IMG/VR virus record: IMGVR_UViG_3300025151_008277
Coordinates: 1 to 64,000 of that record
Length of the DNA: 64,000 nt
Strand: one strand, 5' to 3'
DNA from: a virus
The notes below the pieces were generated by a model, which did no database searches, was not told the origin of the DNA, and was given only the letters and a program-made list of their open reading frames with translations. Of the stretch, positions 1,700-63,340 are shown in pieces (the stretch's first letter is position 1; each line of letters starts with the position of its first letter). Made by a program: the position numbers and the translations under genes.

Positions 1700-1707
1700 A
1701 ATAAATA
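1700..1707 (+). promoter_or_regulatory. Late promoter AATAAATA
   Basis: AATAAATA ends 5 nt before the ATG at 1713. With T4 late-promoter geometry (motif at -13 to -6), transcription would start on the A of that ATG. Confidence 0.65.
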
Positions 1708-1712
1708 ATGTT

Positions 1713-1814
1713 ATGAGTAAAAGACAAACTGTAAGAGAGACAACTAAGAATGGAATCAGAACACGTAAGACGGTAACTGTTACTAAGAAGCGTGTTGGTA
1801 AGAGGAAGAAGTGA
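1713..1814 (+). CDS. Very basic 33-residue peptide
   Basis: ATG at 1713, TGA at 1812-1814. The peptide has about 14 Lys/Arg among 33 residues and ends RVGKRKK, so it probably binds nucleic acid (inference). A late promoter ends 5 nt before the ATG, and the stop overlaps the next gene's ATG by one base (TGATG), which supports real translation. No family is recognised. Confidence 0.6.
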   Translation: MSKRQTVRETTKNGIRTRKTVTVTKKRVGKRKK

Positions 1815-2104
1815 TGGAAGTACAAGAAATTATTAAACAAGCATCTGGAGTACTGTTATCTGTATGTTTCGCTATTGCATACTTTCCACAGATTATCAGA
1901 ATGATTAGGAATAAGAGCTCACGAGATGTATCATTAGGTATGCTGATTCTCAACCTTGTGGGTTATTCTTCAGGATTAATCTATGTTACATCCAATGAGA
2001 TTGCTAGATTCTGGGTAGTGGTTAACTATACGTCTGGTATTGTGATGACTATACTGACTGTATTTTTCTGGAAGTACTATATTAGAAAGGAAATTGACCG
2101 ATAG
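1814..2104 (+). CDS. PQ-loop / SemiSWEET-like membrane protein
   Basis: A 96-residue protein with three hydrophobic segments (about 8-27, 41-60 and 66-87). The first carries YFPQIIRMIRNKSSRDVS, the Pro-Gln loop signature of PQ-loop (MtN3/SemiSWEET) proteins, followed by small polar residues typical of the family. SemiSWEETs are about 90-100 residues with three helices and dimerise to move sugars, so the length fits one complete unit. The ATG overlaps the upstream TGA; AGGAAG just upstream is a good ribosome binding site. It probably sits in the host inner membrane. The substrate is unknown. Confidence 0.75.
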   Translation: MEVQEIIKQASGVLLSVCFAIAYFPQIIRMIRNKSSRDVSLGMLILNLVGYSSGLIYVTSNEIARFWVVVNYTSGIVMTILTVFFWKYYIRKEIDR

Positions 2105-2105
2105 G

Positions 2106-2243
2106 ATGGCGAAGATGGTGATTAGAATTAGGAGCCGCCGGGTAAATATAATTTGCGTGCCGGAGAGGAAGAAGAGATATGAACGAGAAAGTGAGGAAGA
2201 TACGGGTTGTTATACCGTGGAATACAGGGACAAGGCGACATAA
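2106..2243 (+). CDS. Small basic hypothetical peptide (45 residues)
   Basis: ATG 2106 lies one base after the PQ-loop gene's stop; TAA at 2241-2243. It begins MAKMVIRIRSRRVNIICV and has many Arg and Lys residues. Tight coupling to the upstream gene supports it, but it overlaps the next small frame by 65 nt, so one of the two may not be translated. Confidence 0.4.
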   Translation: MAKMVIRIRSRRVNIICVPERKKRYERESEEDTGCYTVEYRDKAT

Positions 2244-2310
2244 GCCAAAGAAGGGTAAGGGATCTTATAATCGAAAGAAAAAAGGTGGTTTCGGCCGCCT
2301 TTTTTTATAA
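2179..2310 (+). CDS. Small basic hypothetical peptide (43 residues)
   Basis: Starts at ATG 2179 after a strong purine-rich ribosome binding site (GGAAGAAGAG). Reads MNEKVRKIRVVIPWNTGTRR followed by a run rich in Lys and Gly, and its last codons pass through the terminator hairpin. The composition resembles small ribosomal or RNA-binding proteins. The ribosome site makes it more convincing than the overlapping frame at 2106. Confidence 0.5.
   Translation: MNEKVRKIRVVIPWNTGTRRHKPKKGKGSYNRKKKGGFGRLFL
2278..2306 (+). terminator. Rho-independent terminator with UUCG loop
   Basis: Stem GGTGGT (2284-2289) with GCCGCC (2294-2299), loop TTCG, preceded by an A-run and followed by seven T. It closes the small-peptide operon. 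The next late promoter starts on the last T of the U-run. Confidence 0.85.
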
Positions 2311-2313
2311 ATA
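2306..2313 (+). promoter_or_regulatory. Late promoter TATAAATA
   Basis: Perfect T4-type late promoter box, ending 5 nt before the ATG at 2319, directly abutting the preceding terminator. Confidence 0.8.
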
Positions 2314-2318
2314 TTTTT

Positions 2319-2793: not shown

Positions 2794-3513
2794 ATGAAGA
2801 AAACATTACTATTGATTGGTGCAATGGTCGTTAGTCTTAACGTCTTTGCGCAGACAAATGAGCTAAAGATTGCTAAGCCTAGCATCTCATTGGAAGCAGG
2901 CTATGTGGATCGTTTATTTAGCAAAGGTGTATCCTACACTAGTACTGCATCACAGTATCTCGGTTTAAACTTAGCTTCTCCAGCGGAGAACAACTTTATC
3001 CCAGTAGATATCTATGGTGGAGGATTGCTTCTCACTGAGAACACAGATTCCTTTTGGACTGTAGGTCTTGGTAAGGATATCAAGCTAGGAGGGTCTGATA
3101 AGTATAAACTACGTATTGACACAGCATATGCTACTCGTAAGACTGATTTAGACGAGCCAGCTAACAACGAAGTATCAGGAACCATTGCTCTTGTTAATCC
3201 ATTTGTGACACCATATATTGGTTATACTAGGGATTGGAAGATTGAGCAGAACGGTTTCACGCTAGGTGTTAAACGTGATTTTACTGTTAGTGATTGGCTA
3301 ACAATCTCACCTAATGCTGCATATCATACGTTTGACGACTATGAGTCTATTGAGTTATCTACTCGTCTTTCTGTAACTAAGTGGAGACAATTGACTCCGT
3401 TTATTGAAGGTCGTTATGTTGATAACAATTTCGACAAAGCATCGTTTAACTGGGCTTCTTATGAGGCTTCAGGAGACACAACTTGGTTAGCAGGTTTATC
3501 TTTAAACTTCTAA
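2794..3513 (+). CDS. Secreted outer-membrane beta-barrel-like protein
   Basis: A 239-residue protein with a clear Sec signal peptide: MKK, hydrophobic core LLLIGAMVVSLNVF, and likely cleavage after VFA before QTNE. The mature part has alternating polar and hydrophobic strands with many Tyr, Trp and Gly residues and ends in Phe (LSLNF), the usual C-terminal signature recognised by the outer-membrane assembly machinery. It is a single-gene late unit with its own promoter and terminator. A phage product placed in the host outer membrane late in infection could block superinfection or change permeability (inference). No specific family is recognised. Confidence 0.8.
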   Translation: MKKTLLLIGAMVVSLNVFAQTNELKIAKPSISLEAGYVDRLFSKGVSYTSTASQYLGLNLASPAENNFIPVDIYGGGLLLTENTDSFWTVGLGKDIKLGGSDKYKLRIDTAYATRKTDLDEPANNEVSGTIALVNPFVTPYIGYTRDWKIEQNGFTLGVKRDFTVSDWLTISPNAAYHTFDDYESIELSTRLSVTKWRQLTPFIEGRYVDNNFDKASFNWASYEASGDTTWLAGLSLNF

Positions 3514-7000: not shown

Positions 7001-7497
7001 TCTCCTGATAACTTTATTGTTTCGGCAGAACAGTAACCGTAATAAGTTTTATCATTTATCTCTTTTGTAATATATAAGTATCTATTAGTACTAATATTAA
7101 GAGTAAAAAAGTATTGAGAACTTAAAGTACTAAAACTACTATCAGCAGACAGCTTTGACGATGTAATAGCGGTAACAGCTGTAGATGTTGTAGACTTAGC
7201 GTAAAATGTTCCTGCGTTAGAAATATTTTTTATGTAGGTAGTAAACTTAGAATCACTCTGCAACGTATACGGAGTTTTTAAGCTCATAACAGAGCTCAAG
7301 CTATATAAGTCAGACAAGTAGTAAGATGTATTATAGTTAGTAGTTCTATCGCTAATATTTTCAAACAAGTTATATGTTTGTAAACGTAAACCGAAGTTGT
7401 AGTTTTCTACGTTACCTTTGAACAGTAAATTTTTATCCGATGTGTGTTTCATCGTTACCGGTTTTACTGACTCTGTATCAAAGGTAAATATTTTCAT
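4063..7497 (-). CDS. Giant tail adhesin with LamG-like C-terminal domain
   Basis: At 1144 residues this is the largest protein in the window. It is Asn-, Ser- and Thr-rich with beta-strand patterning throughout. A stretch near residues 930-1060 (YNHFAINVSMKQGWMDLYVNG, then RDLKLKGFKMYGRVL) looks like a laminin-G/concanavalin-type lectin jelly roll. The chain ends with a short Cys cluster (TCCTCN). It is the last gene of the baseplate and appendage operon and starts in a TAATG overlap with the upstream fibre-like gene. The position and lectin-like fold suggest a receptor-binding or long tail-fibre protein. The N-terminal part matches no family I know. Confidence 0.7.
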   Translation of the reverse strand: MKIFTFDTESVKPVTMKHTSDKNLLFKGNVENYNFGLRLQTYNLFENISDRTTNYNTSYYLSDLYSLSSVMSLKTPYTLQSDSKFTTYIKNISNAGTFYAKSTTSTAVTAITSSKLSADSSFSTLSSQYFFTLNISTNRYLYITKEINDKTYYGYCSAETIKLSGEVPTLSSHLFEYVIEDEKVKLFPVKDLDKPLEKYQLIFNSGSVELTGTSAGNAVSSVFEIKRNTLTRLKGALNNTFSFYLSSYNKDNIGLNLNTTTNSVSNNYLGFSNNYTLKYNDNWEVGLDVLPLKNQATVEEFYSNNNHYNSQPTNLNRQYEKLFTGNVQNQGYDKVYLSYNIGTKDVHFPPSKLTYFTTPSSLSPYTKLNINDSKIDHLGAVAGNHPLISDKVFKRRIDFKNNNFTDDINATYLCSWLSGNTSGDKLWMDRYYNPDAKDFNTALSTISGTSFTNTVTAAGAQSTYVFDLSSSLTFEKNNDYAYYHIGELDYANHINSLSSFELSRDMEILTKKGSVATFNNVKNDIEIDFDGNRFSKFKTDHNGDMSLSFWLSAQDFSLPLGYKLLGNYFEEGFGIFNTDFVTPNIFLPQGNKILLLNNDLEIYDEIEVLENNEPVKIKGIARKDNFSEFYVLGENNVIYIYNSNPNLVSKVVDLSGYSSLVIDDIDVTKDRFYAAFNPSGSKGYFFYDSTNNSTHLKRTVSADSLGDKHKLYVGPDGDNKETNNVNFFKADSQLDTGNEIAIDSNKNTFTIRQQSPTERNIRYNLLYKNKYANNTKNTVKVSGGSTESFISNVIVDDEDFIITIHDGIRISKFKNSRELVTFKDLTFLDRDSKKYIDVILDFEGKNYVKYYLIVETFSNKTVLHKVDKDFNLSKTRSLGSRVINNLNLTKTITSYYFLKKYNACKNTFKIVLKAKPKFTKTGGFKKTEAHIEYDITQLNGGYNHFAINVSMKQGWMDLYVNGHKYQRETFSPGTFLLDNPLGTGVFIGALSTPYYLNFSSRLQQLGKYLLRDLKLKGFKMYGRVLDYYEIRSHYNYHSFDRDTVWSLPIGQRTYIDTIDQVYKFGLPEKNTNTYDVDIKNLGITDETLKQKLRDEIKKELPKVTPYYDTLKTVNLGKVEPEEVLPAPVVVGAGTTSAQTCCTCN

Positions 7498-8336
7498 TAC
7501 ATTATTCTGATGCCTGAGAATGTGGAAGCTTCAATACCGCTAAATTTTGTAAGATGTAGTGTTACTTTATCTCCTTTTTTCAAATTCATATATACAGAGA
7601 AGTTATATGTACCATGACTAAAAGTATTTGACGGAAAGCTATTAGTGGGTGCATTTGCAAACATTTGTAAAGGTTGTCGCGCGTAAAATACTGCGTTTTT
7701 ATGTATAGTCAAAAACCGCTTGTCATTGCCTATAGATCTAGGTACTCGAACCCCTATCATACCGTTGAATAACATTCCGTAATCGTCTTTTGCTTTATAG
7801 AAAAAACTGTTATTATCGATATCAGTAGTGCCGTCACCGAGTTGAACATCTGTACCTTCGACAAGACCTGTTCCTTTGAAATCGAACCTCTCAAAAAGTA
7901 GAGAACCGTTTGTATTATTTAAAGCCTTATCTACTGTGTTAGATACTGTAAAACCTACTTTTGAATTAGTGTTAGATGATATATCAGACGCGTCAATAGT
8001 AGATGTAGAAATACTATCTACAAATGTAGCTAAAGAACTAAACGCATCATTAATTCGCGACGCATTATTATTTATATCAGCTGTCACTGAGCTTAGAGTT
8101 GTTAAGATAGCATGATTAGTCTCGGCTTTAGCACTTACAGCTGAAATATCAGATGTCTTTAGATACGTACCCGAAATTCTATCAAAGAAGGTAATATTAT
8201 CGACCCCGATAATAAAATCTTTAAAATCTAATAACCGTGTACCATCAGTCGTTTCTAACAATACATAGTCCCCTATCTTGACTTCGGTGGCAATCTCTAA
8301 GTCTTCTATGTTTACTATTTCATCTTCTAAAGCCAT
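7497..8336 (-). CDS. Tail-fibre-like protein with C1q/TNF-like tip
   Basis: A 279-residue protein. Residues 15-45 (VKIGDYVLLETTDGTRLLDF) resemble attachment regions at the base of phage fibres. Residues about 80-120 look like a trimeric coiled stretch. The C-terminal 55 residues (KKGDKVTLHLTKFSG, then STFSGIRIM) match the GD-V-L ... STFSG pattern of C1q/TNF-type trimeric jelly rolls. A late promoter ends 5 nt before the ATG, so it heads its own transcript into the 1144-residue adhesin. Likely a short fibre or adhesin component; the C1q call is by motif only. Confidence 0.65.
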   Translation of the reverse strand: MALEDEIVNIEDLEIATEVKIGDYVLLETTDGTRLLDFKDFIIGVDNITFFDRISGTYLKTSDISAVSAKAETNHAILTTLSSVTADINNNASRINDAFSSLATFVDSISTSTIDASDISSNTNSKVGFTVSNTVDKALNNTNGSLLFERFDFKGTGLVEGTDVQLGDGTTDIDNNSFFYKAKDDYGMLFNGMIGVRVPRSIGNDKRFLTIHKNAVFYARQPLQMFANAPTNSFPSNTFSHGTYNFSVYMNLKKGDKVTLHLTKFSGIEASTFSGIRIM

Positions 8337-8341
8337 ATGAT

Positions 8342-8349
8342 TATTTATT
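8342..8349 (-). promoter_or_regulatory. Late promoter AATAAATA (minus)
   Basis: Read on the minus strand, AATAAATA ends 5 nt before the ATG at 8336, the same spacing seen on many plus-strand late genes. Confidence 0.75.
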
Positions 8350-17012: not shown

Positions 17013-17492
17013 TTATTCGTATCTAAATCCTTGCGTATCTAAAACACCTTTCACTATCTGGTCTTTATTATTTAATGTAGGAATGGTGATGCTTAGTTCT
17101 ATAAAGTACTCATTCTGACTGGGTCTACCTACTATATTAACCTCGTTTACTATAACTCTAGGTTCATATAATGGTAGTCTTTGTATAGCTTCACCGATTA
17201 ATGTACCAGTGTTTTCACTAACTGATTCAAATAAGTACTGTCTCAGATCTAAACCAAATTCTGGATTTAAAATTTTCTGACCAGGTATTGTGTTAAAAAC
17301 ATTCTTAACACTTTGATAAATAGCGTCCTCATCATATAACAATTTAACATCTTTTTTACTGTCAGTTCTATTGACAGGAGTATTGTTAATATCTGAGCTT
17401 AGCTCAAAATCTAAAGACAAATCACTATAAGAAAAGGTTGTTGTTTTATCCTTTACTTTGTTTTCATCTAAGAAATCTAAGTTAATAGCCAT
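17013..17492 (-). CDS. gp25: Baseplate wedge protein gp25
   Basis: A 159-residue protein. The conserved gp25/W core is clear: TIPGQKILNPEFGLDLRQYL, then IGEAIQRLPLYEPRVIV, with the EPR motif that contacts gp6 and the sheath. Family proteins are about 130 residues, and the extra length is an N-terminal extension. A variant late box TTAAATA (17499-17505, minus) lies 6 nt before the ATG, so this gene probably heads the gp25-gp6-gp7-like transcript. Confidence 0.92.
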   Translation of the reverse strand: MAINLDFLDENKVKDKTTTFSYSDLSLDFELSSDINNTPVNRTDSKKDVKLLYDEDAIYQSVKNVFNTIPGQKILNPEFGLDLRQYLFESVSENTGTLIGEAIQRLPLYEPRVIVNEVNIVGRPSQNEYFIELSITIPTLNNKDQIVKGVLDTQGFRYE

Positions 17493-17520
17493 TTTAATTA
17501 TTTAATAATAAAACAAAAAG

Positions 17521-17528
17521 CATAAATA
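17521..17528 (+). promoter_or_regulatory. Late promoter CATAAATA
   Basis: ATAAATA ends 6 nt before the ATG at 17535. A divergent variant box for gp25 (TTAAATA on the minus strand, 17499-17505) lies 20 bp away, so this 42-bp gap serves both directions. Confidence 0.7.
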
Positions 17529-17534
17529 ATTAAA

Positions 17535-18041
17535 ATGGGAAAATTTAACGAAATATACGAAGAGGTATACCAGCGTTATGAGAAAACATGCGCGATCCCA
17601 GGAGATTACGTCAAAATACGTTCTAACGTAAAAGGCTCTGACTGGTATAAAAACTTAGATGAAACCAGGAAGACTTACGTTGATGGTATTATTCAACTCC
17701 AAGAATCTGGTAAGTACATTCTTTTTAGTGCTATTAAATCTACACAATATGAGACTAACGCGCTTGGATCTAAAGAATATATTGCTGATATTACTGTTGA
17801 AGAAGCTCCAGGTTTCTATACTAATCCATTATCAATTCCTATGGAGTTAGTAGAATTCGATATGTCTAGTTCAGATCATAGAGGTACTCGAACTGATAAG
17901 ACCAACGAAAAGGAAGAAAAAATTAACCACAAGCCTGAGCCTGTCGCTGATCAAGATGTTTTAGTTGGTAATAAAACTAAACATGATAACGGTAGTTACA
18001 AGCTTGCAGGTGAGAGTTACACTTCAAAGTATTTGTCTTGA
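17535..18041 (+). CDS. Late hypothetical protein with CTS-like N-terminus
   Basis: A 168-residue protein starting MGKFNEIYEEVYQRYEKT, whose first residues fit the F-acidic-x-[LI]-[YF] pattern shared by several small late proteins here. Residues 20-110 look globular with a GDYVKI beta segment reminiscent of SH3-like folds; the last 50 residues are charged and probably disordered. It has its own late promoter with a 6-nt gap. Its 3' end overlaps the convergent gp44 gene by 18 nt. Function unknown; possibly packaged in the capsid. Confidence 0.65.
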   Translation: MGKFNEIYEEVYQRYEKTCAIPGDYVKIRSNVKGSDWYKNLDETRKTYVDGIIQLQESGKYILFSAIKSTQYETNALGSKEYIADITVEEAPGFYTNPLSIPMELVEFDMSSSDHRGTRTDKTNEKEEKINHKPEPVADQDVLVGNKTKHDNGSYKLAGESYTSKYLS

Positions 18042-18947: not shown

Positions 18948-19435
18948 TACTTATCTTTCTTATCTGAAGAACCGAATCCTTGATCTCCGCGATTAGTATC
19001 AGTCACTTCTTCAGACCATTCACATGAAACCTGCACTAGCGGATATACTACAAATTGAGCTACAGCTTTACCTTTCTCAATCTTAACATCCACATTACTG
19101 AAGTTATATAGCTTTACTGCAAGGTCTCCTCTATATTGGTTATCAATAACACCAAGGTGAGGTTGAATGTTATGCTTAAATCCAAGACCAGACCGTGGTT
19201 CAATTTTAAACCAATAACCAGGTGAGATATCAGCAACTGTTACACCTACTGGGGCGATGCAAGATCCGCCACCAGGGACAGTAACATCTTCAACACAAAA
19301 AAGATCATACCCTGAATCACCAGTAGCCCAACCATCATTATTAACTTTAGGTAGAATGGCATCTTCATGAGTCTTTAAAAATTTTACTTTTATAGCAGGT
19401 TTATCTACAATATTCCAATTCACATTTTCGCTCAT
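18947..19435 (-). CDS. dut: Trimeric dUTPase
   Basis: A 162-residue protein with all five dUTPase motifs in order: TGDSGYDLF, EPRSGLGFK, GVIDNQYRGDL, KAVAQFVVYP and the C-terminal RGDQGFGSS. It hydrolyses dUTP to dUMP and pyrophosphate, keeping uracil out of DNA and feeding dTMP synthesis. An N-terminal extension of about 15 residues is slightly unusual. T4 itself uses a different dCTP/dUTPase (gp56), so this is a bacterial-type replacement common in marine T4-like phages. Confidence 0.97.
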   Translation of the reverse strand: MSENVNWNIVDKPAIKVKFLKTHEDAILPKVNNDGWATGDSGYDLFCVEDVTVPGGGSCIAPVGVTVADISPGYWFKIEPRSGLGFKHNIQPHLGVIDNQYRGDLAVKLYNFSNVDVKIEKGKAVAQFVVYPLVQVSCEWSEEVTDTNRGDQGFGSSDKKDK

Positions 19436-19490
19436 ACCCGTATGATATATCTATTCCGATTTTAATCAAGGTTTAATTATCGGAAACATT

Positions 19491-19498
19491 GATAAATA
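19491..19498 (+). promoter_or_regulatory. Late promoter GATAAATA
   Basis: ATAAATA ends 5 nt before the ATG at 19504. This favours the ATG over the in-frame TTG at 19489, which lies upstream of the box. Confidence 0.72.
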
Positions 19499-19503
19499 AT
19501 CCT

Positions 19504-25114: not shown

Positions 25115-25120
25115 TGTAAT

Positions 25121-25128
25121 TATTTATC
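25121..25128 (-). promoter_or_regulatory. Late promoter GATAAATA (minus)
   Basis: On the minus strand ATAAATA ends 6 nt before the tape measure ATG at 25114; the box overlaps the upstream gene's last codon. Confidence 0.65.
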
Positions 25129-27814: not shown

Positions 27815-27822
27815 ACTGTAAA

Positions 27823-30517: not shown

Positions 30518-30536
30518 AGTTATAACTTTCTTTAAT

Positions 30537-35288: not shown

Positions 35289-35293
35289 ATTAC

Positions 35294-36237: not shown

Positions 36238-36242
36238 ATTAT

Positions 36243-38169: not shown

Positions 38170-38183
38170 AATAAATATTTATA
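38170..38183. promoter_or_regulatory. Palindromic bidirectional late promoter
   Basis: AATAAATA on the plus strand (38170-38177; ATAAATA ends 5 nt before ATG 38183) and TATAAATA on the minus strand (38183-38176; 6 nt before ATG 38169) overlap within 14 bp. The two start codons are only 13 bp apart, so both genes should have essentially leaderless messages, and the two polymerases cannot load at once. Confidence 0.75.
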
Positions 38184-38578: not shown

Positions 38579-38585
38579 TCTTATT

Positions 38586-48672: not shown

Positions 48673-49366
48673 ATATTGTTTTTAAGGATTCGTAAAAGTA
48701 TTGCTCTGATTCACGAAATTCATCAGTAAACTTAGTTAGTCCTGGTGAACCATGAACAACATGAACAGGTACAGTACCTAGTATAATGCCAGCTTGAAAA
48801 CAATCAACAGAAAATTTTAGATCATAATGATGAAAGCCTTTTATGTTTTCATCAAACGTAATATTTTTTTCAATAAGTTTTTTTGGTTGTATAGCGAGAA
48901 ATAAACCGTCAAGAAGAATCACCCTTTTACCTATCTCACCGAATATAGTAGGCATATAATTATCTCCGTGCTTGTGACTCACGACTCCTGACCACGAGGT
49001 TTTATCAGACATTAGATGCCACAATAACGGTTTTTTTATCTTAAGACGAGAACCACCAGCAAGCCCACAAACATCAAACTTTTTAAAACCATCAAAAACC
49101 TTTTCTACGAAACTACTGCTATCAATATATACATCATCGTGAGCAAAAATAACACAATCCCACTTATCATCTATATTTTCATTGTATAGCTCGCATAAAC
49201 CTTTTTTATTGTTATTGTAGAATCTTACGTAGCCATCATACTTTAAATCATCTAAGCTCTTGTATAAAAGAGTATCAGTATAATCTTCTTTTTGAGTAGC
49301 GCTAACTACTAAAACCTTATCATATGAAAAATCCCGTCGAGGCTTGAAACGTATCATATTGCTCAT
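48659..49366 (-). CDS. GT-A type glycosyltransferase
   Basis: A 235-residue protein. The GT-A nucleotide-sugar fold is indicated by VLVVSATQKEDY, the DxD-type metal motif FAHDDVYID (about 74-82), and a later HHYDLKFSVDCFQAG acceptor/catalytic segment. It resembles family-2-like transferases that modify glycans. The gene overlaps the Gat gene by 47 nt and the helicase by 14. With the dTDP-sugar genes it could modify virion glycoproteins or modified DNA bases (inference). Confidence 0.75.
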   Translation of the reverse strand: MSNMIRFKPRRDFSYDKVLVVSATQKEDYTDTLLYKSLDDLKYDGYVRFYNNNKKGLCELYNENIDDKWDCVIFAHDDVYIDSSSFVEKVFDGFKKFDVCGLAGGSRLKIKKPLLWHLMSDKTSWSGVVSHKHGDNYMPTIFGEIGKRVILLDGLFLAIQPKKLIEKNITFDENIKGFHHYDLKFSVDCFQAGIILGTVPVHVVHGSPGLTKFTDEFRESEQYFYESLKTIYDKR

Positions 49367-49952
49367 ATTTTTGCTTAGTGAAATTAAATCTATAAATTAT
49401 ACCCTCATCTAATAATTTCCAATCATATACAGGTTTAGAGCTAATATTTCTCCCATCAGTATAGACTGTACTACCAGATCGAAAAACAAATAACTCAGAA
49501 GTTTTTGAATCATACAACCAACAACCAAACGTACCTTCTAGTTCTTGTAAAGTTTGTTTAAGACCTATTTTATCTATCATAGGTAGTATAATACTACTAT
49601 CGACTTCGTTAACAGTACCGTCAGGTAGATACTTATCATATTTTGATTTCAGTTTATCAAAATTACTAAGCACTCCATTATGAGCTAAATATTTTTCTTT
49701 ATATTCGAAAGGGTGAGTTGTAGCTTCTGAAAAGTCTCTCTTAGATGAAGTAGGGGATTGTAGATGACCGAGATAAAATACAGTATCGTCTTCGAAGTCT
49801 ATTTTTTTATCGAAGTCAGTATCTTTAATAACCTTAATAGTGTTACTTATATTAAATTTAATAACCCCATACGCGAAGTTACCTCTCTCTTTATTGAGGT
49901 GAAATAAATGATCGAAGCCGTGTCTATCAGGAGATCCTATTATACCGCACAT
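49320..49952 (-). CDS. Class II glutamine amidotransferase (Gat of preQ0/archaeosine pathway)
   Basis: A 210-residue protein. MCGIIGSPDR exposes the catalytic N-terminal Cys after Met removal; GHLQSPTS, HNGVLSNFDKLKSKY and VDSSIILPMI match the glutaminase fold of GlmS/PurF type. No synthetase domain is attached. It follows QueC by 2 nt; in other phages the two are fused as Gat-QueC and thought to give the amidine of archaeosine from preQ0. Here they are separate genes in the order queC then gat. Confidence 0.85.
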   Translation of the reverse strand: MCGIIGSPDRHGFDHLFHLNKERGNFAYGVIKFNISNTIKVIKDTDFDKKIDFEDDTVFYLGHLQSPTSSKRDFSEATTHPFEYKEKYLAHNGVLSNFDKLKSKYDKYLPDGTVNEVDSSIILPMIDKIGLKQTLQELEGTFGCWLYDSKTSELFVFRSGSTVYTDGRNISSKPVYDWKLLDEGIIYRFNFTKQKYEQYDTFQASTGFFI

Positions 49953-49954
49953 AA

Positions 49955-50644
49955 TTACTCATTCCATGGTATATCATTTCTTTCATATTGCAACGGATCT
50001 TTAATACCAGCATCTAAAAATCCCTTGATACGAGAACTACAAGCAGTACAGTGACCACACGCTTTATCTCTACCTTCATAACAAGTCCATGTATCAACAA
50101 AGGATACATCATGTTCTACCCCTTTGAGAATAATGTCTCTCTTAGTTAGAGTAATTAAAGGTGCTAATATATTAATCTTATTCTTCCTATTGAGAGCGAT
50201 AAGATTATTAATACTATCAAGAAATTCAGTACTACCATCCCAGTATCCTGCTTGACTATCAATTAAAGCTGCGCCGTGATAAACAGTATCTGCGCCTACG
50301 CTTTCTGCATATGCGCACGCAATAGATAATAACATTTGATTTCTAAAAGGCACATAATTAACAGTTTGCGCATCTCCAAGAACATCTTTTGTCTTAGCAA
50401 CATCAATACCGTTATTAGTTAAAGAAGAAGTTGAAGCAATATCTCTAAAAAAAGATAAATTTATCTCTTTATAAGCTTCTCCAGATTGCTTTTTTGCACA
50501 GTCAATTTCTTTTATATGTCTTTGACCGTAATTAAATGTAATAGGAAATACTTGCGTATGTTTACTTCTAGCATAACTTCTAGCATACGCAAGTATGACA
50601 CTACTGTCTATTCCCCCACTTACTGGAACTACTGCTTTACTCAT
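49955..50644 (-). CDS. queC: 7-cyano-7-deazaguanine synthase QueC
   Basis: A 229-residue protein, the normal QueC length. The ATP-pyrophosphatase P-loop VPVSGGIDSSVILAYA (7-22), ITFNYGQRH, VPFRNQMLL and the zinc site CYEGRDKACGHCTACSSR near the C-terminus are diagnostic. It makes preQ0 from 7-carboxy-7-deazaguanine, ATP and ammonia. It overlaps uvsX by 8 nt, so it is expressed with replication genes. With FolE2 and Gat it suggests 7-deazaguanine DNA modification. Confidence 0.96.
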   Translation of the reverse strand: MSKAVVPVSGGIDSSVILAYARSYARSKHTQVFPITFNYGQRHIKEIDCAKKQSGEAYKEINLSFFRDIASTSSLTNNGIDVAKTKDVLGDAQTVNYVPFRNQMLLSIACAYAESVGADTVYHGAALIDSQAGYWDGSTEFLDSINNLIALNRKNKINILAPLITLTKRDIILKGVEHDVSFVDTWTCYEGRDKACGHCTACSSRIKGFLDAGIKDPLQYERNDIPWNE

Positions 50645-51739: not shown

Positions 51740-52105
51740 TTATTTCTCGAATAGTTCAACTACTGGCTCTTCTTCAGTAGCTTGAGGTACTTCTTCAGCT
51801 TTAAAATTAATCTTAGTAAAATAATGCTCTAAGATTTTATCAGTGAGAGTAACATCTACAGGTGTAATATTACTCTTGCTAAAGTGAAATAAGCTTACCC
51901 TATCTCCATTTTCAGCTGGAGTAATAAACTCATTAAAGAAAAGAGGAATAACATCTACTTTCATTTGATGAGCTTCATTCGGAGAAACCATAATCATAGC
52001 AGGATTCTTTAGTACATATGTACTATCAGTCTCTTCTGCTAGTTCACCGAAACACGTTCGGCCGATGCCATCATTAAAAACTACTAACTTATAATTTTCG
52101 TACAT
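51740..52105 (-). CDS. Small Sm-like beta-barrel hypothetical protein
   Basis: A 121-residue protein. The first 80 residues have short strands (GRTCFGELAEETDSTYVLKN) spaced as in an Sm/SH3-like barrel, followed by an acidic, Pro-rich tail. It lies between the polymerase and uvsX, 2 nt from the latter. Small proteins of this kind occur near DNA metabolism genes in marine T4-like phages. Fold assignment is weak. Confidence 0.6.
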   Translation of the reverse strand: MYENYKLVVFNDGIGRTCFGELAEETDSTYVLKNPAMIMVSPNEAHQMKVDVIPLFFNEFITPAENGDRVSLFHFSKSNITPVDVTLTDKILEHYFTKINFKAEEVPQATEEEPVVELFEK

Positions 52106-52135
52106 ACAACAATAATAACATATGGTTTTTATTAA

Positions 52136-54814
52136 TCAACGGTCTATTTTAAAGAAATCAAATAAATCTGTTTGATATGCTTCACCAGGCTTATACGGTC
52201 GCCATTTGACTGAATCATAAAATCTTTCTATTACTTGAAACAGAATTTTTTCAAACATCTTTTCGTAGTCTACTAAGAATAAACTCTTAAATTCATCAGG
52301 AAAGTTATACTTAAACGCTAAGCTGTTGCACCCATATTTGTTAGGTTGTTGTACGTAGAAGTATCTTACCTTATCTCCAGAACCAATAGTTTCGTACTTA
52401 CCGCTAAGATTAAACTCTTCTAATAATTCATTGTAAAATATAGATGACTTAACGTGTATAGGTGTACCTTTACCAATGGTAAAATTATCAGCTTTAATAG
52501 CATACTTATCGTAATCTTTTATACCCATTACAAATGCTATATCTTCTACAGGTAAGCTAGAAAACAATTGGTATACCTTATCAAACATCTCATTAGTCTT
52601 AGCTTGATCCCGTGTCATGATCATATTTTCAATAATACCTCTCACATGAGGCTTGATAGGTTCTGGCATAGTAGTGCGCACTACTTCTACTCCAGTATAC
52701 TTGAAAGTATTACAAGGGTCTCCTTCATCATCTAGTTTATGAAGTACGTATCTTTTCTTCTGCAAAAACATACCCTTATCGCAAATAGATTCTCTCTTAA
52801 AGACGAACCTCGGGTCGATGGTATTAAGTGTATTTCTAGCCCAAGTCTCAATATGCTTATTGAGATAGTCTTCTATATTTTGAACTAAATCATACACCTC
52901 AGGTTTAACGACAATATTTTTCGTTGCAGGAGAATGCGCTTCGATAAAAAGAGGTATATTCATATGCTCAAGTAAAGGTGATATAGTAACATAACTTGAG
53001 TCAGTATCATTGTATATAACCGGGTCATTATTTTTAAGATCTTCATCAGAGAGATTAGTATGCTCTTTAATGTAGTTTCTTAGTATAACATTACTTTGTT
53101 TAATTACATCCTGTCCTGTAAGTGTAATAGACCTTGCAATATCACCATCACCCATTTGAGAGTGTTTATTACCAAAGTAGCCATATATTCGATTGATAAG
53201 AATTTTTAGAGTAAGCTGATAAATTTTAGCTTGGTTAATCTTAGTAGGTAATTCCCCAATACGTTTATTAATTTTCTCCTTTTCTTTTGTATCAGTAATA
53301 TCATCTACTTTATTTTTAAGATCAGTTAACTCTTTTTTAAGTTCGATCATTAAGTCTTTCTTCTCTCTTCTAATCTTATAGAAGTGTTCTGATATGGTAG
53401 GGAAAATACCTTTAGGTTCTTGAAAGAATAGTTTCTTTGCTCTTGTAACAGCTATTTTATTCTTTTTAATCCACTTAACAAAATTAGGTTTTGAGAACTT
53501 GAAGTCTTCGTTATTGATTGACTTTACATAAACAGTATCATCATCAGTAAAGGTAATTTCTCCAAACTTAGTTTCAGGACTAAGATTAAGAGTAATCATA
53601 GTAGAAGGGTATAGAGAGTTAGCATCAAATGATATAATATTGTCTTGAAATCCTCGCTGTGGTTCACTTACGTAAGCTCCTTCATACTTCTCTGTACGAG
53701 ATTTATCTTTAATGAATGTAGGGATAACTCGAGGGTCTTCACCTCTACGAGCTTGAATTATAGCTCTTCCATTTACAGTACTAATGGTGCCTAGAGCAGC
53801 ATTAAATGGAGTTAAACCAATATAAGATAACATTCTTACAAGATCTAAGAATTGTAATTTTTCATCAAGTTTGCAGAGAAGAGTAACGTCTTGAATATTG
53901 TAATCTACGAATGTCTTCCAGTCTTTTTTAGCAAGAGTAGCTAAGTTAGTATTATTAGTATCTATCTTTCTACCTACTCCTTCGTATTCACCAATTGAGT
54001 CAAGCTTATAACTATCTCTCATACCCATTGAGAATGTTTTGTAGATATCAAGATAGTCAAGCATACTAATACCTTCTACTACATACTTTGTTTGCTCTTT
54101 ACCAAACGTACCTCTGAATTGTCTAGCATAAACAGGTTGTTTAAGTTCTTCACTCATCGGAGAGATCATATTCCGAACATCTTCTCCAAAAACATTTTGT
54201 AAGCGATTTATGATATATGGAATATCAAATGTCTCACTATTCCATCCAGATAAGATATCAGGAGGGTCTTTACGATAGAAGTTGAGGAAGTTCCATAAGA
54301 GGTCTTTTTCTGTCTTACAGTTTACATAAACAACATTATCTAGCTCGGGTTTGTATTCTCCTAGTCCCCATGAATAGTATGTTTTATCTAAAGTATCATA
54401 TACCGTAATAATGTTGATAGGAAACTTAGCATCTTCAGGTTTAGGGAATTCATCAGGAGAATAAACCTCAATATCAAAAAACCAATTCTTTAACGGGAAT
54501 TGATCAAACGTATCACTCTCATTTTCATTCCAATATGAGTCTATAAGAAATTGTTGATAGGGAGTAATGTTCTCAAAAATACGATCAATACCTAGATCTT
54601 GAATTCGAGTTCTTCTATCCTTTTCAGACTTACAAACAATACGTCTGAGCTTCGTACCATACAGAGAGGTAGCAACTTGAAGTCTAGGATTAGAGGTTTC
54701 GTAATAGAAGTAAGGTCGATAATCAACATCAGTAGTTATTCTACCACCGTCTTCCGACCAAGTAAATAACCGCATTTTACGCTCATGCGGCATATATGAT
54801 AAACCTCTATACAT
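52136..54814 (-). CDS. gp43: DNA polymerase gp43 (family B)
   Basis: An 892-residue protein (T4 gp43 is 898). Exonuclease motif I WFFDIEVYSP (112-121) and II DILSGWNSETFDIPYI; polymerase motif A FDANSLYPSTM, motif B KILINRIYGYFGNK and motif C YNDTDSSY are all intact. The C-terminus ends TDLFDFFKIDR, a likely clamp-binding tail. It replicates the genome with proofreading. No inteins or insertions were seen. Confidence 0.98.
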   Translation of the reverse strand: MYRGLSYMPHERKMRLFTWSEDGGRITTDVDYRPYFYYETSNPRLQVATSLYGTKLRRIVCKSEKDRRTRIQDLGIDRIFENITPYQQFLIDSYWNENESDTFDQFPLKNWFFDIEVYSPDEFPKPEDAKFPINIITVYDTLDKTYYSWGLGEYKPELDNVVYVNCKTEKDLLWNFLNFYRKDPPDILSGWNSETFDIPYIINRLQNVFGEDVRNMISPMSEELKQPVYARQFRGTFGKEQTKYVVEGISMLDYLDIYKTFSMGMRDSYKLDSIGEYEGVGRKIDTNNTNLATLAKKDWKTFVDYNIQDVTLLCKLDEKLQFLDLVRMLSYIGLTPFNAALGTISTVNGRAIIQARRGEDPRVIPTFIKDKSRTEKYEGAYVSEPQRGFQDNIISFDANSLYPSTMITLNLSPETKFGEITFTDDDTVYVKSINNEDFKFSKPNFVKWIKKNKIAVTRAKKLFFQEPKGIFPTISEHFYKIRREKKDLMIELKKELTDLKNKVDDITDTKEKEKINKRIGELPTKINQAKIYQLTLKILINRIYGYFGNKHSQMGDGDIARSITLTGQDVIKQSNVILRNYIKEHTNLSDEDLKNNDPVIYNDTDSSYVTISPLLEHMNIPLFIEAHSPATKNIVVKPEVYDLVQNIEDYLNKHIETWARNTLNTIDPRFVFKRESICDKGMFLQKKRYVLHKLDDEGDPCNTFKYTGVEVVRTTMPEPIKPHVRGIIENMIMTRDQAKTNEMFDKVYQLFSSLPVEDIAFVMGIKDYDKYAIKADNFTIGKGTPIHVKSSIFYNELLEEFNLSGKYETIGSGDKVRYFYVQQPNKYGCNSLAFKYNFPDEFKSLFLVDYEKMFEKILFQVIERFYDSVKWRPYKPGEAYQTDLFDFFKIDR

Positions 54815-57881: not shown

Positions 57882-58900
57882 ACAAACTGCTTATAGATTT
57901 CTATGGTTTTTTTAATGACATCAACTTTGTATTCGTCATCAATCGTATTATCAATATATTCTATAATGCATTCCCTAGTATTCAAGTCAGCTAATTCATT
58001 AGTAAACGGCGTATCTCCAGGATTAAATTTGTGAAGATAATCTACTGTAAGGTCAACTGGGTTATAAGAGTTAACTTTAGAAACAATATTATCTAGATCT
58101 TTAATCTTAATATCATTATCTACTAGAAGTTTTAGAATTATATTATGTAGTCTATCTTTATATTGAGGTAGTGTTGCAATATCGCTGGTTTTTATTTTAA
58201 CATGATTAGGTGAATAATTATTCTCAATAAACTCATACGATAAATCTTCCAGATCAATAATATAAAATCCCTTTTTATCTCCTAGATCACTAAAGTCCAT
58301 TTCAAAAGTGTTACCCGCATATACTACTACACCATTATCATAATTTCTTTCTTCTCTCTTATGAAAGTGGCCTGAGAATACTCTCGTAGTTTTATTTAAA
58401 AGTTCTCTAGAATTAAAACCATGTTCACAAACTTTAAAATTATTATACTTAAAGTTCTGAATCTCAAAATGACCAAATATGATATCAGCAGGCTCAATCT
58501 CACTCATATCAATACCCCAAGGACACATCATTAAGTCTCTGCCTTTTTTCCTAATTACTTTAGGAACATCAATGACGTCAATATTATTTTTAGTATTAAG
58601 AATTGATAAAGAATTTACTGTAGAATGATCCTTATAATAAGAATCATGATTACCAGTAATCATAGTAATATTGAAATCTTTAAATGTATCCAATATTAGA
58701 TTAGCTGCATGTAAGCATTTTACATTTACTTCATCTCTATAATGGAAAAAATCCCCTCCAAAAATTAGTTCATGTATATTACGATCCTTTAGCTCTTTTT
58801 GAAACCAATTAGACCATTCTAAAGCAATAGTTAACCAGCGTTCGCTATTTTGATGAACACCGAGATGAAGATCTGTAAAAAACGCAATCTTAGAATTCAT
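57878..58900 (-). CDS. gp47: Recombination endonuclease subunit gp47 (Mre11-like)
   Basis: A 340-residue protein (T4 gp47 is 339). Metallophosphoesterase motifs in order: FFTDLHLGVH, FGGDFFHYRDE, TGNHDSYYKD, FGHFEIQ and FSGHFHKREE. It is the nuclease partner of gp46. Confidence 0.96.
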   Translation of the reverse strand: MNSKIAFFTDLHLGVHQNSERWLTIALEWSNWFQKELKDRNIHELIFGGDFFHYRDEVNVKCLHAANLILDTFKDFNITMITGNHDSYYKDHSTVNSLSILNTKNNIDVIDVPKVIRKKGRDLMMCPWGIDMSEIEPADIIFGHFEIQNFKYNNFKVCEHGFNSRELLNKTTRVFSGHFHKREERNYDNGVVVYAGNTFEMDFSDLGDKKGFYIIDLEDLSYEFIENNYSPNHVKIKTSDIATLPQYKDRLHNIILKLLVDNDIKIKDLDNIVSKVNSYNPVDLTVDYLHKFNPGDTPFTNELADLNTRECIIEYIDNTIDDEYKVDVIKKTIEIYKQFV

Positions 58901-59361
58901 TAGTCGTTGTAATTAATCATACCATCTTCATCGGAGTTTTTTACATACACTCTCCCGTTTCCTTCAGCGCACATAATTTCTTCGTAGATGGTTTCTTGAT
59001 ATTCATTAATAGTCTGTTTGTATCGCTTTTCTTTCTTAATTCGATTTATAAATGCATGATAAGCTATTGTTGTAAAATAAGAGAAAGGATTTGAATGTGA
59101 TTCAATATTAAATTTCTTATGTTTCAAAGCTGTAAACATTTTAACTACTGCATCCCCGACCATTTCATCTTTATAGGTGTAATTGATAAAATTAGTTGCA
59201 TAGCTTAGTCCAATTGCAATCTTATGAACCGACTCGGCAAGAGTATCACATAAATCATCTGTCTCGTAATAAGTTTTAATCTGATTATAAAACTCTTTAG
59301 GATTTACGTAATATTCAGTCTTCTTACCCTTTTTATTTTTCGAAGTAGTTTTTTTGTTCAT
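58900..59361 (-). CDS. gp55: Late sigma factor gp55
   Basis: A 153-residue protein (T4 gp55 is 185). NPFSYFTTIAYHAFINRIKK is the diagnostic region 2-like motif; the preceding KDEMVGDAVVKMFTALKHKK also fits. It directs host RNA polymerase to TATAAATA late promoters, many of which are present here. It ends EDGMINYND and lacks the hydrophobic clamp-binding tail of T4 gp55. Overlaps UvsW by 29 nt and touches gp47 (TAATG). Confidence 0.9.
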   Translation of the reverse strand: MNKKTTSKNKKGKKTEYYVNPKEFYNQIKTYYETDDLCDTLAESVHKIAIGLSYATNFINYTYKDEMVGDAVVKMFTALKHKKFNIESHSNPFSYFTTIAYHAFINRIKKEKRYKQTINEYQETIYEEIMCAEGNGRVYVKNSDEDGMINYND

Positions 59362-60763: not shown

Positions 60764-61164
60764 TGAAGCTCTAACTTTTCTAATTCAATTAAGTTTTTAA
60801 TATCCCATTGTATATTATTCACAATGTTTTGTATTTTTTCTAAATACTCTAAAATTAGTTCTTCTTCTTGAATTTTAATATCTATCTCTACTAATTCTTT
60901 TCTATTAGTTACAGATTTTTCAGCAATGGATATGTTAACTTTTACAGGAGATTGATCAATATATTCTGATACCAATTCTCTATATAATTCTTTTTTAGCT
61001 ACTTTTAATTTAATTAATCTTCTTTTATGATTAATATAACGACCAGCCCATTTATGCTTTAAAGAAGGTAATTTAGTTTGATGATTATCGAGGTTTAACT
61101 TATTAATATTGATCTCTGGTTTGAGCTCATTACTATAGTCCTCTAATATCTGATCAACATCCAT
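60760..61164 (-). CDS. uvsY: Recombination mediator UvsY-like protein
   Basis: A 134-residue protein (T4 UvsY is 137), lysine-rich and helical: LKHKWAGRYINHKRRLIKLK in the middle and LEYLEKIQNIVNNIQWDIKN near the end follow the UvsY pattern of marine T4-like phages. It lies next to UvsW, as in T4. It loads UvsX onto gp32-covered DNA. ATG 61164 is preferred to an in-frame TTG at 61197, which lies inside the promoter. Confidence 0.75.
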   Translation of the reverse strand: MDVDQILEDYSNELKPEININKLNLDNHQTKLPSLKHKWAGRYINHKRRLIKLKVAKKELYRELVSEYIDQSPVKVNISIAEKSVTNRKELVEIDIKIQEEELILEYLEKIQNIVNNIQWDIKNLIELEKLELQ

Positions 61165-61170
61165 AGATTT

Positions 61171-61197
61171 ATTATAACTATAAATCACAGAAGTCAA
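61171..61197 (-). promoter_or_regulatory. Sigma70-like promoter for the uvsY-uvsW-gp55 operon
   Basis: On the minus strand TTGACT (61197-61192), 15 bases, TATAAT (61176-61171), then 6 nt to the uvsY ATG. Initiation would fall on or next to the ATG. The spacer is shorter than ideal. It probably starts the recombination operon early in infection. Confidence 0.55.
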
Positions 61198-61273: not shown

Positions 61274-61281
61274 GATAAATA
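61274..61281 (+). promoter_or_regulatory. Late promoter GATAAATA
   Basis: ATAAATA (61275-61281) ends 5 nt before the ATG at 61287, favouring that start over the ATG at 61272. Confidence 0.75.
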
Positions 61282-61286
61282 CTTAT

Positions 61287-61883
61287 ATGGATTTTGATAA
61301 TCTATACAAATCTTACTTAGCTGAATTTACTGTAGCTGATGCTGGACTCGCTGGTGATGCAGAGTTCGCGTATAATAGTGATGATACGTATGCTCCTGGG
61401 GACGTGAGAACTCCTAAAGCTTTAGGAGCTACTATTTCACGAAAAGGTAAAGTAAAGAAAAAGAAAAAGAAAAAAAAGCTTAACGAAGATACAATATACG
61501 ACTATTTACTTTTCCCTCCTGAAGGAGAAGATCAAGAAAAAATTACTACTTACATAGCTACTTTAAAATCTGATTCAGATGAAGTATACAGGGGTATGTC
61601 TTCTGCGGAATATAAAAACTTAATCAAAGATGGTAGTGTTGTATCTAGAGGCGCTGGTAATACTAGAAAGGGTATTAGCGGTAGTTATGTTTCTGACAGT
61701 ATACAACTCGCGGGTAGATTTGCTTTTGCAGAATATAAAGATAAAGGTAGAGCTTATTTGGTAGCTTTTGATAAAGATAAATTACCAGAATTAAATCCTG
61801 CTGATGAAGGTAATTATTGGACTTCAAATCTCTTTAAAGATGCTATCACCGCAGCTTATTATTTGCCAGATCTGGCTAAGTAG
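61287..61883 (+). CDS. ADP-ribosyltransferase-like protein with CTS-like N-terminus
   Basis: A 198-residue protein in three parts. 1-20: MDFDNLYKSYLAEFTVADAG, a capsid-targeting-like helix with L-A-E at 11-13. 20-66: linker with an unusual Lys run (57-64). 95-198: EVYRGMSSAEYKNLIKDGSV, SRG, GSYVSDS, AGRFAFAEY, AYLVAFDKDKLP and ADEGNYW, the order of R-S-E type ADP-ribosyltransferases (Arg at YRG 102, Ser/Thr strand 132-137, candidate Glu at 174). T4 packages Alt, an ADP-ribosyltransferase, in its head; this could be an analogue. Strong by pattern, unproven. Confidence 0.6.
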   Translation: MDFDNLYKSYLAEFTVADAGLAGDAEFAYNSDDTYAPGDVRTPKALGATISRKGKVKKKKKKKKLNEDTIYDYLLFPPEGEDQEKITTYIATLKSDSDEVYRGMSSAEYKNLIKDGSVVSRGAGNTRKGISGSYVSDSIQLAGRFAFAEYKDKGRAYLVAFDKDKLPELNPADEGNYWTSNLFKDAITAAYYLPDLAK

Positions 61884-61896
61884 TATATATTAGTAC

Positions 61897-62427
61897 ATGC
61901 CTAGTAGAGCTAAAGCAAAAGGTAACGCATGGGAAAGAGACGTTGCTAAACATCTAAGTGAAGTTTTTAATGAGAACTTTATGCGTGTACCTAATTCTGG
62001 TGCATATACCGGAGGAGCTAATGTATTTCGTGTAGATAACTTAACCGAAACTCAAAAAAGAATGATGGACGGTGATATTATTGTACCAGAATCTATCAGT
62101 AATTGGAAAATTGAGTGTAAAAACTATAAAGATCTTGATTTTCATGGTTTTTTTACCAAATCCCGCCAGTTAGATGAGTGGATTAAACAAGCTGAGAGTG
62201 GCACAAAGTGGTTTTTAGTTGTAAAAATTTCTAGAAAATGTAGATTTGTTTGTTTCTCAGAATATTACCGTAGAATTTTTCATTATTTAAATTATACTTA
62301 CTATAAGAAATATATCTTAACTGATTATACTGATTTTTTCGAAAATAATTTTTGGAAAATGCGTGAGTTAAATGAAGAAACTATACAACACATTTGTATT
62401 ACCGAAAAGTCGGTACAAACTAGTTGA
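61897..62427 (+). CDS. PD-(D/E)XK nuclease-like protein
   Basis: A 176-residue protein. KAKGNAWERDVAKHLSEVF, GDIIVPESISNWKIECKNYK (Asp, then Glu-x-Lys) and an acceptor helix before residue 90 form the PD-(D/E)XK active site; the N-terminal Arg/Lys-rich part resembles Holliday-junction resolvases. T4 gp49 (a different fold) was not found in this window, so a resolvase role is possible. The following gene starts within its last 56 nt. Confidence 0.7.
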   Translation: MPSRAKAKGNAWERDVAKHLSEVFNENFMRVPNSGAYTGGANVFRVDNLTETQKRMMDGDIIVPESISNWKIECKNYKDLDFHGFFTKSRQLDEWIKQAESGTKWFLVVKISRKCRFVCFSEYYRRIFHYLNYTYYKKYILTDYTDFFENNFWKMRELNEETIQHICITEKSVQTS

Positions 62428-62890
62428 CTTGAATGATGTCTTTGTTAATTCTAACATAGAGCATGTAAAAAATATCTTTGAAAATCAGCTCACAAATAAA
62501 CCTATCATAAGAAAATACTTCTATCATACATATATTTTTAATATATGTAAATCTGTAATTGATAACAATAAAAAGCATGTTCCAGTATTAATTTTTAATA
62601 CAGAAGATGAGAGTTTATCTAATGATGAATCAAAAATTTTTGATAAGTTTTTAAGAATGTTCCCTGTTATTAATATTAAAACTAAAATTAGTTTTAATTA
62701 CTTTATAAAATCATTATCTGACGCTGGAATGAGAGAAGAGATATCTAACGTAATATATTGTAGTCAAGATAAAATATCGCGTAAGCGTTTTTACTTCTCA
62801 AAGATAGAAAACTTTTGTAAGAGATACGAATTAACGTTTTTAGACAAAAAATTCTTTGGGGACATAAAAAATAAAATGCTTATGATATAA
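62372..62890 (+). CDS. Hypothetical basic protein
   Basis: A 172-residue protein, Lys/Phe/Ile-rich, starting MKKLYNTFVLPKSRYKLVDL. Predicted alpha/beta with an acidic loop (NTEDESLSNDES, about 75-86). It overlaps the nuclease gene by 56 nt in another frame. No recognised family; it may act with the nuclease. Confidence 0.55.
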   Translation: MKKLYNTFVLPKSRYKLVDLNDVFVNSNIEHVKNIFENQLTNKPIIRKYFYHTYIFNICKSVIDNNKKHVPVLIFNTEDESLSNDESKIFDKFLRMFPVINIKTKISFNYFIKSLSDAGMREEISNVIYCSQDKISRKRFYFSKIENFCKRYELTFLDKKFFGDIKNKMLMI

Positions 62891-62893
62891 ATA
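62886..62893 (+). promoter_or_regulatory. Late promoter TATAAATA
   Basis: Perfect box ending 6 nt before the ATG at 62900, overlapping the previous gene's stop. Confidence 0.78.
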
Positions 62894-62899
62894 ATTATA

Positions 62900-63340
62900 A
62901 TGAGCAAGTTCCTATCTGTTATTGAAAATTTAGCGTCTAAGAAAAAGTTAGCTTTACCTCCTGAAGATGAAGCTCTCAAGGATATCGACCGTAAAAAGAA
63001 GAACAAGGAAATTCTTTCTCCTCAAGAAAAGGAATTAGATAGGCTTAATAGTTTAGTTTTAAAGAAAGCTAAAGACAGGCTCAAAAAACAATTAGCTACT
63101 GAGGAAGAAGATCAAGTAGCTCAAGAACCCTCTACCGAACCAGAAACAGCTACCCAGGTATTATCCCCTGAAGGAGAAGTGTTTTATGTTGATCAAATAA
63201 AGAAGGCCTTATTTGTAGACTTAGATAACGTTGAGTTAACTTCTTCAGAAAAAGAGGCTATAACTCACGACGTTACACCCGAAAACGCAAAAAAAGTCGC
63301 TGAAGTACTACAAAAGATCATCAGCGACTTTGGTTTGTGA
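62900..63340 (+). CDS. Late acidic/basic hypothetical protein
   Basis: A 146-residue protein starting MSKFLSVIENLASKKKLALP. The first 75 residues are basic and helical, followed by a Glu/Pro/Thr linker and a helical C-terminus (ENAKKVAEVLQKIISDFGL). The opening MSKF resembles other small late proteins here. Probably virion-associated; no family is recognised. Confidence 0.6.
   Translation: MSKFLSVIENLASKKKLALPPEDEALKDIDRKKKNKEILSPQEKELDRLNSLVLKKAKDRLKKQLATEEEDQVAQEPSTEPETATQVLSPEGEVFYVDQIKKALFVDLDNVELTSSEKEAITHDVTPENAKKVAEVLQKIISDFGL

Follow-up and report, generated by a model that had tools for sequence, protein, structure and literature searches.

The 64,000-nt stretch analysed here (the window) is half of G000, a 127-kb record (GC 33%) of an uncultured, aquatic, T4-like virus. 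PHROG matches to T4 core genes comprised the terminase, sheath, tube, major head protein, DNA polymerase, a gp46-type nuclease subunit, UvsX and UvsY, and a gp55-type late sigma factor is encoded on the minus strand (58900–59361; phrog_234, E = 2.1 × 10−26), with gp55 matches in 7 of the 10 contigs of the phage group. The PF02916 model of the gp45 clamp found no match in G000 and also missed the Pelagibacter myophage HTVC008M, and no tRNAs were detected in either half of G000. T4-type late promoters carry a box at −13 to −6 and no conserved −35 element. G000 has the TATAAATA-like box and the encoded gp55 expected of this system.

Late boxes lie directly before many start codons in the window. 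The gap between box and ATG is 5 nt on the plus strand at ORF 1713–1814 (feature 1701–1715; ATAAATA) and at ORFs 2319–2747 (2307–2321), 19504–19956 (19492–19506), 35294–36178 (35282–35296), 36243–36545 (36231–36245), 38183–38578 (38171–38185) and 61287–61883 (61275–61289), and on the minus strand at ORF 7497–8336 (8334–8348). It is 6 nt at ORFs 17535–18041 (17522–17537) and 62900–63340 (62887–62902) on the plus strand, and at ORFs 23642–25114 (25112–25127; weak tape-measure similarity), 33727–33942 (33940–33955) and 37804–38169 (38167–38182) on the minus strand, and every one of these 5- and 6-nt gaps had been listed in a preliminary description of this DNA. A variant box, TTAAATA, stands 6 nt before ORF 17013–17492 (17490–17505, minus). 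Wider gaps were found at ORF 2794–3513 (7 nt, predicted 2-nt leader; 2780–2796, plus), at ORF 38586–38837 (8 nt; 38571–38588, plus), at the tail tube gene 27236–27814 (8 nt; 27812–27829, minus) and at the tail sheath gene 27902–30517 (19 nt, with AAAGAAAG; 30515–30543, minus), where a 14-nt leader is predicted; sheath and tube had been named beforehand as exceptions with these same distances. The boxes of the divergent pair 38169 (minus) and 38183 (plus) overlap, their start codons being just 13 bp apart. The ORF opened by the ATG at 1713 has only 33 codons.

Across the whole record we counted 66 ATAAATA boxes, and with ORFs counted from 40 aa upwards the gap to the ATG was 5 nt in 10 cases, 6 nt in 7, 7 nt in 5 and 8 nt in 2. 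The genome-wide distance scan bore out the preliminary claim of a fixed spacing, since the 5-nt peak was far above the expectation from words in which the same five A and two T stand in a different order (10 seen vs 0.53 expected, Poisson P ~ 3 × 10−10). The low GC content, the short intergenic gaps and the number of boxes leave some room for an artefact of composition in a T/A-rich genome, an explanation to which we attach practically no weight: same-base arrangements yielded 0.5 against the 10 seen, the reversed pattern occurred 0 times against 11 for the real one in G000 and, over 13 further records, 4 times against 65, and T4, of similar GC content, had none at 5 nt with the same 40-aa minimum. 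The explanation is refuted by these controls, in which the box was permuted, the pattern reversed and the distance varied. The ATAAATA word is rarer in the window than in shuffles (41 vs 55.6), so the enrichment is positional.

Box occurrence depended on gene context. A late box lay no more than 12 nt before the start at 0 of 76 tightly coupled genes in G000 compared with 21 of 77 others, and 2 of 380 compared with 103 of 499 in the pooled contigs, which indicates that it acts as a promoter and not as a ribosome signal. The alternative that the AT-rich box serves translation, as the A/T-rich or Kozak-like start contexts of Bacteroidota do, with transcription starting further upstream, draws on the start codons of G000, which sit in A/T-rich sequence and are preceded by a Shine-Dalgarno motif in only 8% of cases (5–6% in controls, 56% in T4), and on Flavobacterium, in which Shine-Dalgarno sequences are lacking, start contexts are Kozak-like and most mRNAs carry leaders (PMC6847099). 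Tightly coupled genes would need a start signal too, yet none of the 76 has the box, and on this operon-position test we rejected a translation context, which we consider quite unlikely also in view of the match of the box to the T4 late promoter alongside an encoded gp55, the abrupt edge in box position described below, unlike a diffuse context, and the Flavobacterium phage immuto, which has neither the pattern, nor a detectable gp55, nor a 5-nt peak. The packed downstream genes have no box and no Shine-Dalgarno motif, and the spacing rule covers genes with an adjoining promoter but not these.

Related contigs showed the same spacing. Pooled over eight of them, late-box gaps of 4, 5, 6, 7 and 8 nt numbered 1, 42, 31, 12 and 18, and box variants other than ATAAATA gave 1, 39, 28, 15 and 7 at the same distances, with a cliff one base wide between 4 and 5 nt for ATAAATA and variants alike. 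Start codons at the 5-nt gap in the pooled clade were ATG in 42 cases, GTG in 5 and TTG in none. Box and gap were often kept between orthologs with 25–58% protein identity: the TAAATA core 5 nt before the ATG of ORF 7497–8336 recurred in three orthologs, ORF 17535–18041 had a box at 5–6 nt in seven, ORF 62900–63340 had one at 6 nt in two, and for ORF 35294–36178 a box lay 5 nt from the assigned start in two relatives. A purine was present at position 6 after the box in 78% of cases in T4, 87% in cyanophage and 85% in the 6–12-nt set of the clade.

These data also bear on the possibility that the late box is an ordinary one and that polymerase starts elsewhere, or that the true start codons lie downstream, leaving normal leaders. 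The annotated start is open to doubt in a few cases (38183 and 61287), which are not longest-ORF starts and have in-frame ATGs at 38159 and 61272; ortholog starts at the box support 38183 well and 61287 in one relative only (G006). Against normal leaders, which we judge highly unlikely, stand the purine signature shared with T4, ortholog alignments that often begin at residue 1, a sigma70-like promoter class that points the same way, and the absence of any downstream start with a Shine-Dalgarno motif within 50 codons in 23 box genes, so that this outcome, which would have counted against the preliminary claim, was not seen.

The second promoter class, TTGATT/TATAAT, is also predicted to place +1 on the ATG, at a gap of 6 nt. 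Gaps from TATAAT to ATG peaked at 6 nt in G000 (n = 7), and gaps of 5 vs 6 nt numbered 1 vs 35 in the pooled related contigs and 2 vs 58 in G003 and G004 together. With the A of the ATG as reference, eight genes of G000 have a −35 element at −34 or −33 and a −10 element at −12, including 19435 (TTGATT at −34, TATCAT at −12; 19433–19469), 52105 (TTGATT at −34, TATTAT at −12; 52103–52139) and uvsY at 61164 (TTGACT at −33, TATAAT at −12; 61162–61197), all on the minus strand. TATAAT boxes at similarly short distances had been proposed before uvsY and 3599; the gap is 6 nt at uvsY and 8 nt at 3599. In the register used (late box −13 to −6, −10 box −12 to −7) the preferred gaps of 5 and 6 nt differ by one base, which is what a +1 on the A for both boxes would predict. 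As the sigma70-like promoters follow the same spacing rule, the rule is not only a late-gene feature, and a long middle-type promoter would likewise land +1 on the ATG at dozens of genes in two distant relatives.

In the absence of transcript data, that late mRNAs begin at the AUG or immediately ahead of it is a strong inference and not proof, their 5′ ends being inferred. Leaderless mRNAs are defined by a 5′ UTR of 0–5 nt. A 5-nt gap predicts no leader, and gaps of 6 to 11 nt predict leaders of 1 to 6 nt; because the gap exceeds 5 nt at roughly half of the box genes, a strict 5′-AUG is not universal, and at several late genes (sheath, 40011 and 93053) a leader of some 14 to 19 nt remains. The leaderless reading draws support from the geometry, the cliff, the +1 purine, the absence of the box at tightly coupled genes, its conservation among orthologs, gp55 and the lack of Shine-Dalgarno motifs, but the phage-wide use envisaged in the preliminary description does not fully hold. 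Recognition of a 5′-terminal AUG by 70S ribosomes is known, and therefore the very unusual start mechanism raised there as the alternative is not required.

We propose that gp55-type TATAAATA-like promoters and sigma70-type promoters (TTGATT, TATAAT) would set the polymerase start at the A of the ATG or at most 6 nt upstream, giving messages that begin with AUG or nearly so and carry no Shine-Dalgarno sequence. Ribosomes would then bind the 5′-terminal AUG in an inferred 70S-type leaderless initiation, coupling would serve for translation of the packed genes downstream, and the unidentified host would presumably have ribosomes good at leaderless initiation. It is very probable, judging from sequence and with 5′ ends, 70S initiation and host ability all inferred, that promoters also act as the signal for starting translation in a lineage-wide leaderless programme. 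With more reserve, we lean towards an aquatic T4-like lineage in which promoters of every temporal class are in register with the start codon across the genome and ribosome-binding sites have given way to leaderless mRNAs, box placement being under selection down to one base and different phages reaching the same register with different activator boxes. A phage bS21 was discarded as a common helper, being present in HTVC008M, Mosig and G005 but absent from G000.

Searches for the host identified none. The terminase had no match among GTDB contigs, an RfbA-like phage gene matched scattered taxa at 45–55% identity, TATAAT-6-ATG showed no clear general excess in a Bacteroidota sample, and a longer promoter pattern came up nearly empty when scanned over the class of one Acidimicrobiia genome.

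Late promoters of T4 share with those of G000 a TATAAATA-type box roughly a helical turn upstream of +1, AT-rich sequence after the box, a gp55 homolog and a purine at the same +1 position. They differ in that 12–29 nt separate the box from the ATG in T4, usually with a Shine-Dalgarno leader in between, whereas the G000-type ATG lies mostly 5–11 nt after the box without one. The phage lambda cI mRNA from PRM is a leaderless phage message, but it represents one gene compared with dozens in two promoter classes here. Lambda is credited with the first leaderless case (PMC3160421). In TA-led leaderless genes of Actinobacteria and Deinococcus-Thermus, a −10 box likewise sets the transcript start at the start codon (PMC3160421, PMC12340547), although those are cellular sigma70-type promoters, whereas in these T4-like phages the rule is followed by a late sigma and a middle-type promoter of the phage. 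The giant phage AR9 has leaders of 26–491 nt. In the open-licence literature we found no earlier description of T4-like phages with leaderless late mRNAs.

T4 late transcription is a textbook system of leadered, Shine-Dalgarno messages. Across a group of uncultured aquatic phages, its box and sigma factor seem to produce messages that lack leaders, and two promoter classes are involved. If this is true, transcription starts and start codons could be read straight from phage DNA and gene starts corrected. Some genes of cultured Pelagibacter phages appear to share the leaderless late layout. The finding may account in part for the failure of the cyanophage method to predict late promoters in pelagimyophages (PMC7029224), and lytic-phage translation without Shine-Dalgarno sequences becomes testable in a cultured phage-host pair. 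The Pelagibacter myophages HTVC008M and Mosig have the exact 5-nt late-box class, at 9 and 7 genes, respectively. They differ from G000 in that this class stands beside leadered late genes, with Shine-Dalgarno motifs at 46–47% of all starts, and their gap counts gave no clear TATAAT peak at 6 nt. In the first 50 kb of HTVC008M, 7 of 7 5-nt boxes lie at annotated CDS starts, including those of the tape measure, baseplate and DNA-end protector.

Box-to-ATG distances were scanned with controls across the whole record (G000; 127,116 bases, GC 33%, the window covering 1–64,000), and the comparison set comprised the rest of G000, nine related contigs with terminases 46–73% identical, and six reference T4-like phages. 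G000 is itself T4-like, with recognisable terminase, sheath, tube, major head protein, DNA polymerase, gp46-type nuclease subunit, UvsX, UvsY and gp55-type late sigma factor; gp55 was detected in 7 of the 10 contigs of the group. The late-promoter word ATAAATA stood exactly 5 nt before ATG at 10 genes in G000, versus 0.53 predicted when the five A and two T are ordered differently (ORFs ≥40 aa only; p ~ 3 × 10−10). This excess agrees with the preliminary description, which inferred leaderless late mRNAs from short, fixed box-to-start gaps, and each gap it listed was found in the sequence. Read backwards, the exact pattern occurred 0 times versus 11 forward in G000, and 4 versus 65 across thirteen other records. 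ATAAATA is less frequent than in shuffled sequences, so selection acts on the position of the word.

Across eight related contigs, G000 included (terminase identity 57–100%), ATAAATA had gaps of 4, 5, 6, 7, 8, 9 and 10 nt in 1, 42, 31, 12, 18, 14 and 7 cases, and a separate set of variant boxes (CTAAATA, TTAAATA, GTAAATA and TAAGTA forms) in 1, 39, 28, 15, 7, 10 and 7. The cliff between 4 and 5 nt has the shape expected if +1 is placed 6 nt after the box, because a shorter gap would lose the start codon while a longer one merely gives a short leader. Start codons at gap 5 were ATG (42), GTG (5) and TTG (0). ORF starts were assigned by rule, contigs may be fragments and related contigs share ancestry, so pooled counts are not independent events, although the gap peaks of individual genomes stand on their own. 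At 38167–38185, divergent late promoters overlap within the 13 bp that separate start codons 38169 (−) and 38183 (+), and would produce two back-to-back near-leaderless transcripts.

The T4 late box is numbered −13 to −6, the figure used in the preliminary description. It lies about one helical turn upstream of +1 (PMC2988020). Position 6 after the box was a purine in 78% of cases in T4, 87% in cyanophages and 85% in genes of G000 and its relatives with gaps of 6–12 nt, where ATG imposes no A at that position. Genes with 5-nt gaps had a pyrimidine directly before ATG in 98% of cases, which is the usual pyrimidine–purine start signature, though no 5′ ends have been mapped.

TATAAT-to-ATG distances peaked at exactly 6 nt (7 versus ~0.9 expected in G000; 26 versus 2.8 and 32 versus 1.2 in relatives G003 and G004). 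Because the sigma70 −10 box spans −12 to −7, a 6-nt gap does for it what a 5-nt gap does for the late box, and +1 would fall on the A of ATG in either promoter class. In G000, TTGA at −34 accompanied a −10 box at −12 at genes 64456 and 84546 (+) and 99172, 64384, 52105 and 19435 (−), and TTGA at −33 did so at gene 67516 and uvsY (61164, −). A long element in G003 and G004, ATTAAAACCGAA-N-TATAAT or ATTAAAAACTARAA-TATAAT, at one constant distance from ATG in ~50 genes each, resembles a middle promoter carrying a phage activator box.

The late box could instead be a translation signal, which would be needed in uncoupled and tightly coupled genes alike, but it was all but absent from the latter. 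Among the 77 uncoupled genes of G000 (divergent, or with an upstream gap >3 nt), 21 have the box 5–12 nt ahead of the start codon, whereas none of the 76 tightly coupled ones do; over G000 and its relatives pooled, the values were 103/499 and 2/380. The Flavobacterium phage immuto had no detectable gp55, and the 5-nt peak was also absent. In immuto a different fixed-position element, TATCAATAATTAAAAC, begins ~26 nt upstream of roughly ten starts. Box and gap were often retained in orthologs with low protein identity, as in seven relatives of gene 17535 (gaps 6, 6, 5, 6, 6, 6 and 6 nt; identity 25–48%); some orthologs had lost the exact ATAAATA and kept a TAAATA core, and others had neither.

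Boxes in G000 and its relatives peak at 5 nt, whereas in T4 the ATG count was zero at gaps <12 nt and 25 at 15–30 nt; S-PM2 and Syn9 had T4-like distributions. RB49, KVP40, Aeh1, phiM9, Atu_ph04, Cr30, P-SSM2 and RM378 gave 0–3 forward pattern matches each, mostly no more than the control. Among cultured Pelagibacter myophages, the box stood exactly 5 nt from the ATG 9 times in HTVC008M (0 times at 6 nt) and 7 times in Mosig, which had a further 23 starts at 15–30 nt, so cultured phages have this layout too, alongside leadered genes. Seven 5-nt cases in the first 50 kb of HTVC008M match annotated starts. Leaderless genes are widespread in Actinobacteria and Deinococcus-Thermus (PMC3160421, PMC12340547); for T4-like phages, the open-licence literature yielded no report of leaderless late mRNAs.

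AGGA, GGAG or GAGG occurred at 8% of starts in G000 versus 5–6% in controls (T4, 56%; HTVC008M, 46%; Mosig, 47%), and the figure for the relative G002 was 19%. Downstream start codons with good ribosome binding sites, which the preliminary description held would refute leaderless transcripts, did not emerge: in 23 box genes, the 50 codons downstream of the start held no Shine-Dalgarno start. Initiation at a 5′-terminal AUG is established elsewhere for leaderless mRNAs; in this phage such initiation, with tightly packed genes translated by coupling, is inferred and not shown here.

Several further features were observed. QueC-like, QueD-like and amidotransferase-like genes at 49320–50644 and 64456–64896 of G000 suggest 7-deazaguanine DNA modification (DpdA was not among the genes searched), and an ORF at 65044 resembles QueE by eye. 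The tail sheath (27902–30517, −; 871 aa) matches sheath families in its C-terminal part only, leaving ~600 residues unmatched. The ORF at 2794–3513 (+) has an N-terminus, MKKTLLLIGAMVVSLNVFAQ, resembling a Bacteroidota-type signal peptide, while early promoters resemble ordinary sigma70 promoters; the host is not settled. ATAAATA lies 1 nt before the ATG of an RfbA-like gene (30616–31470, +), whose matches in GTDB genomes spread across many phyla at 45–55% identity.
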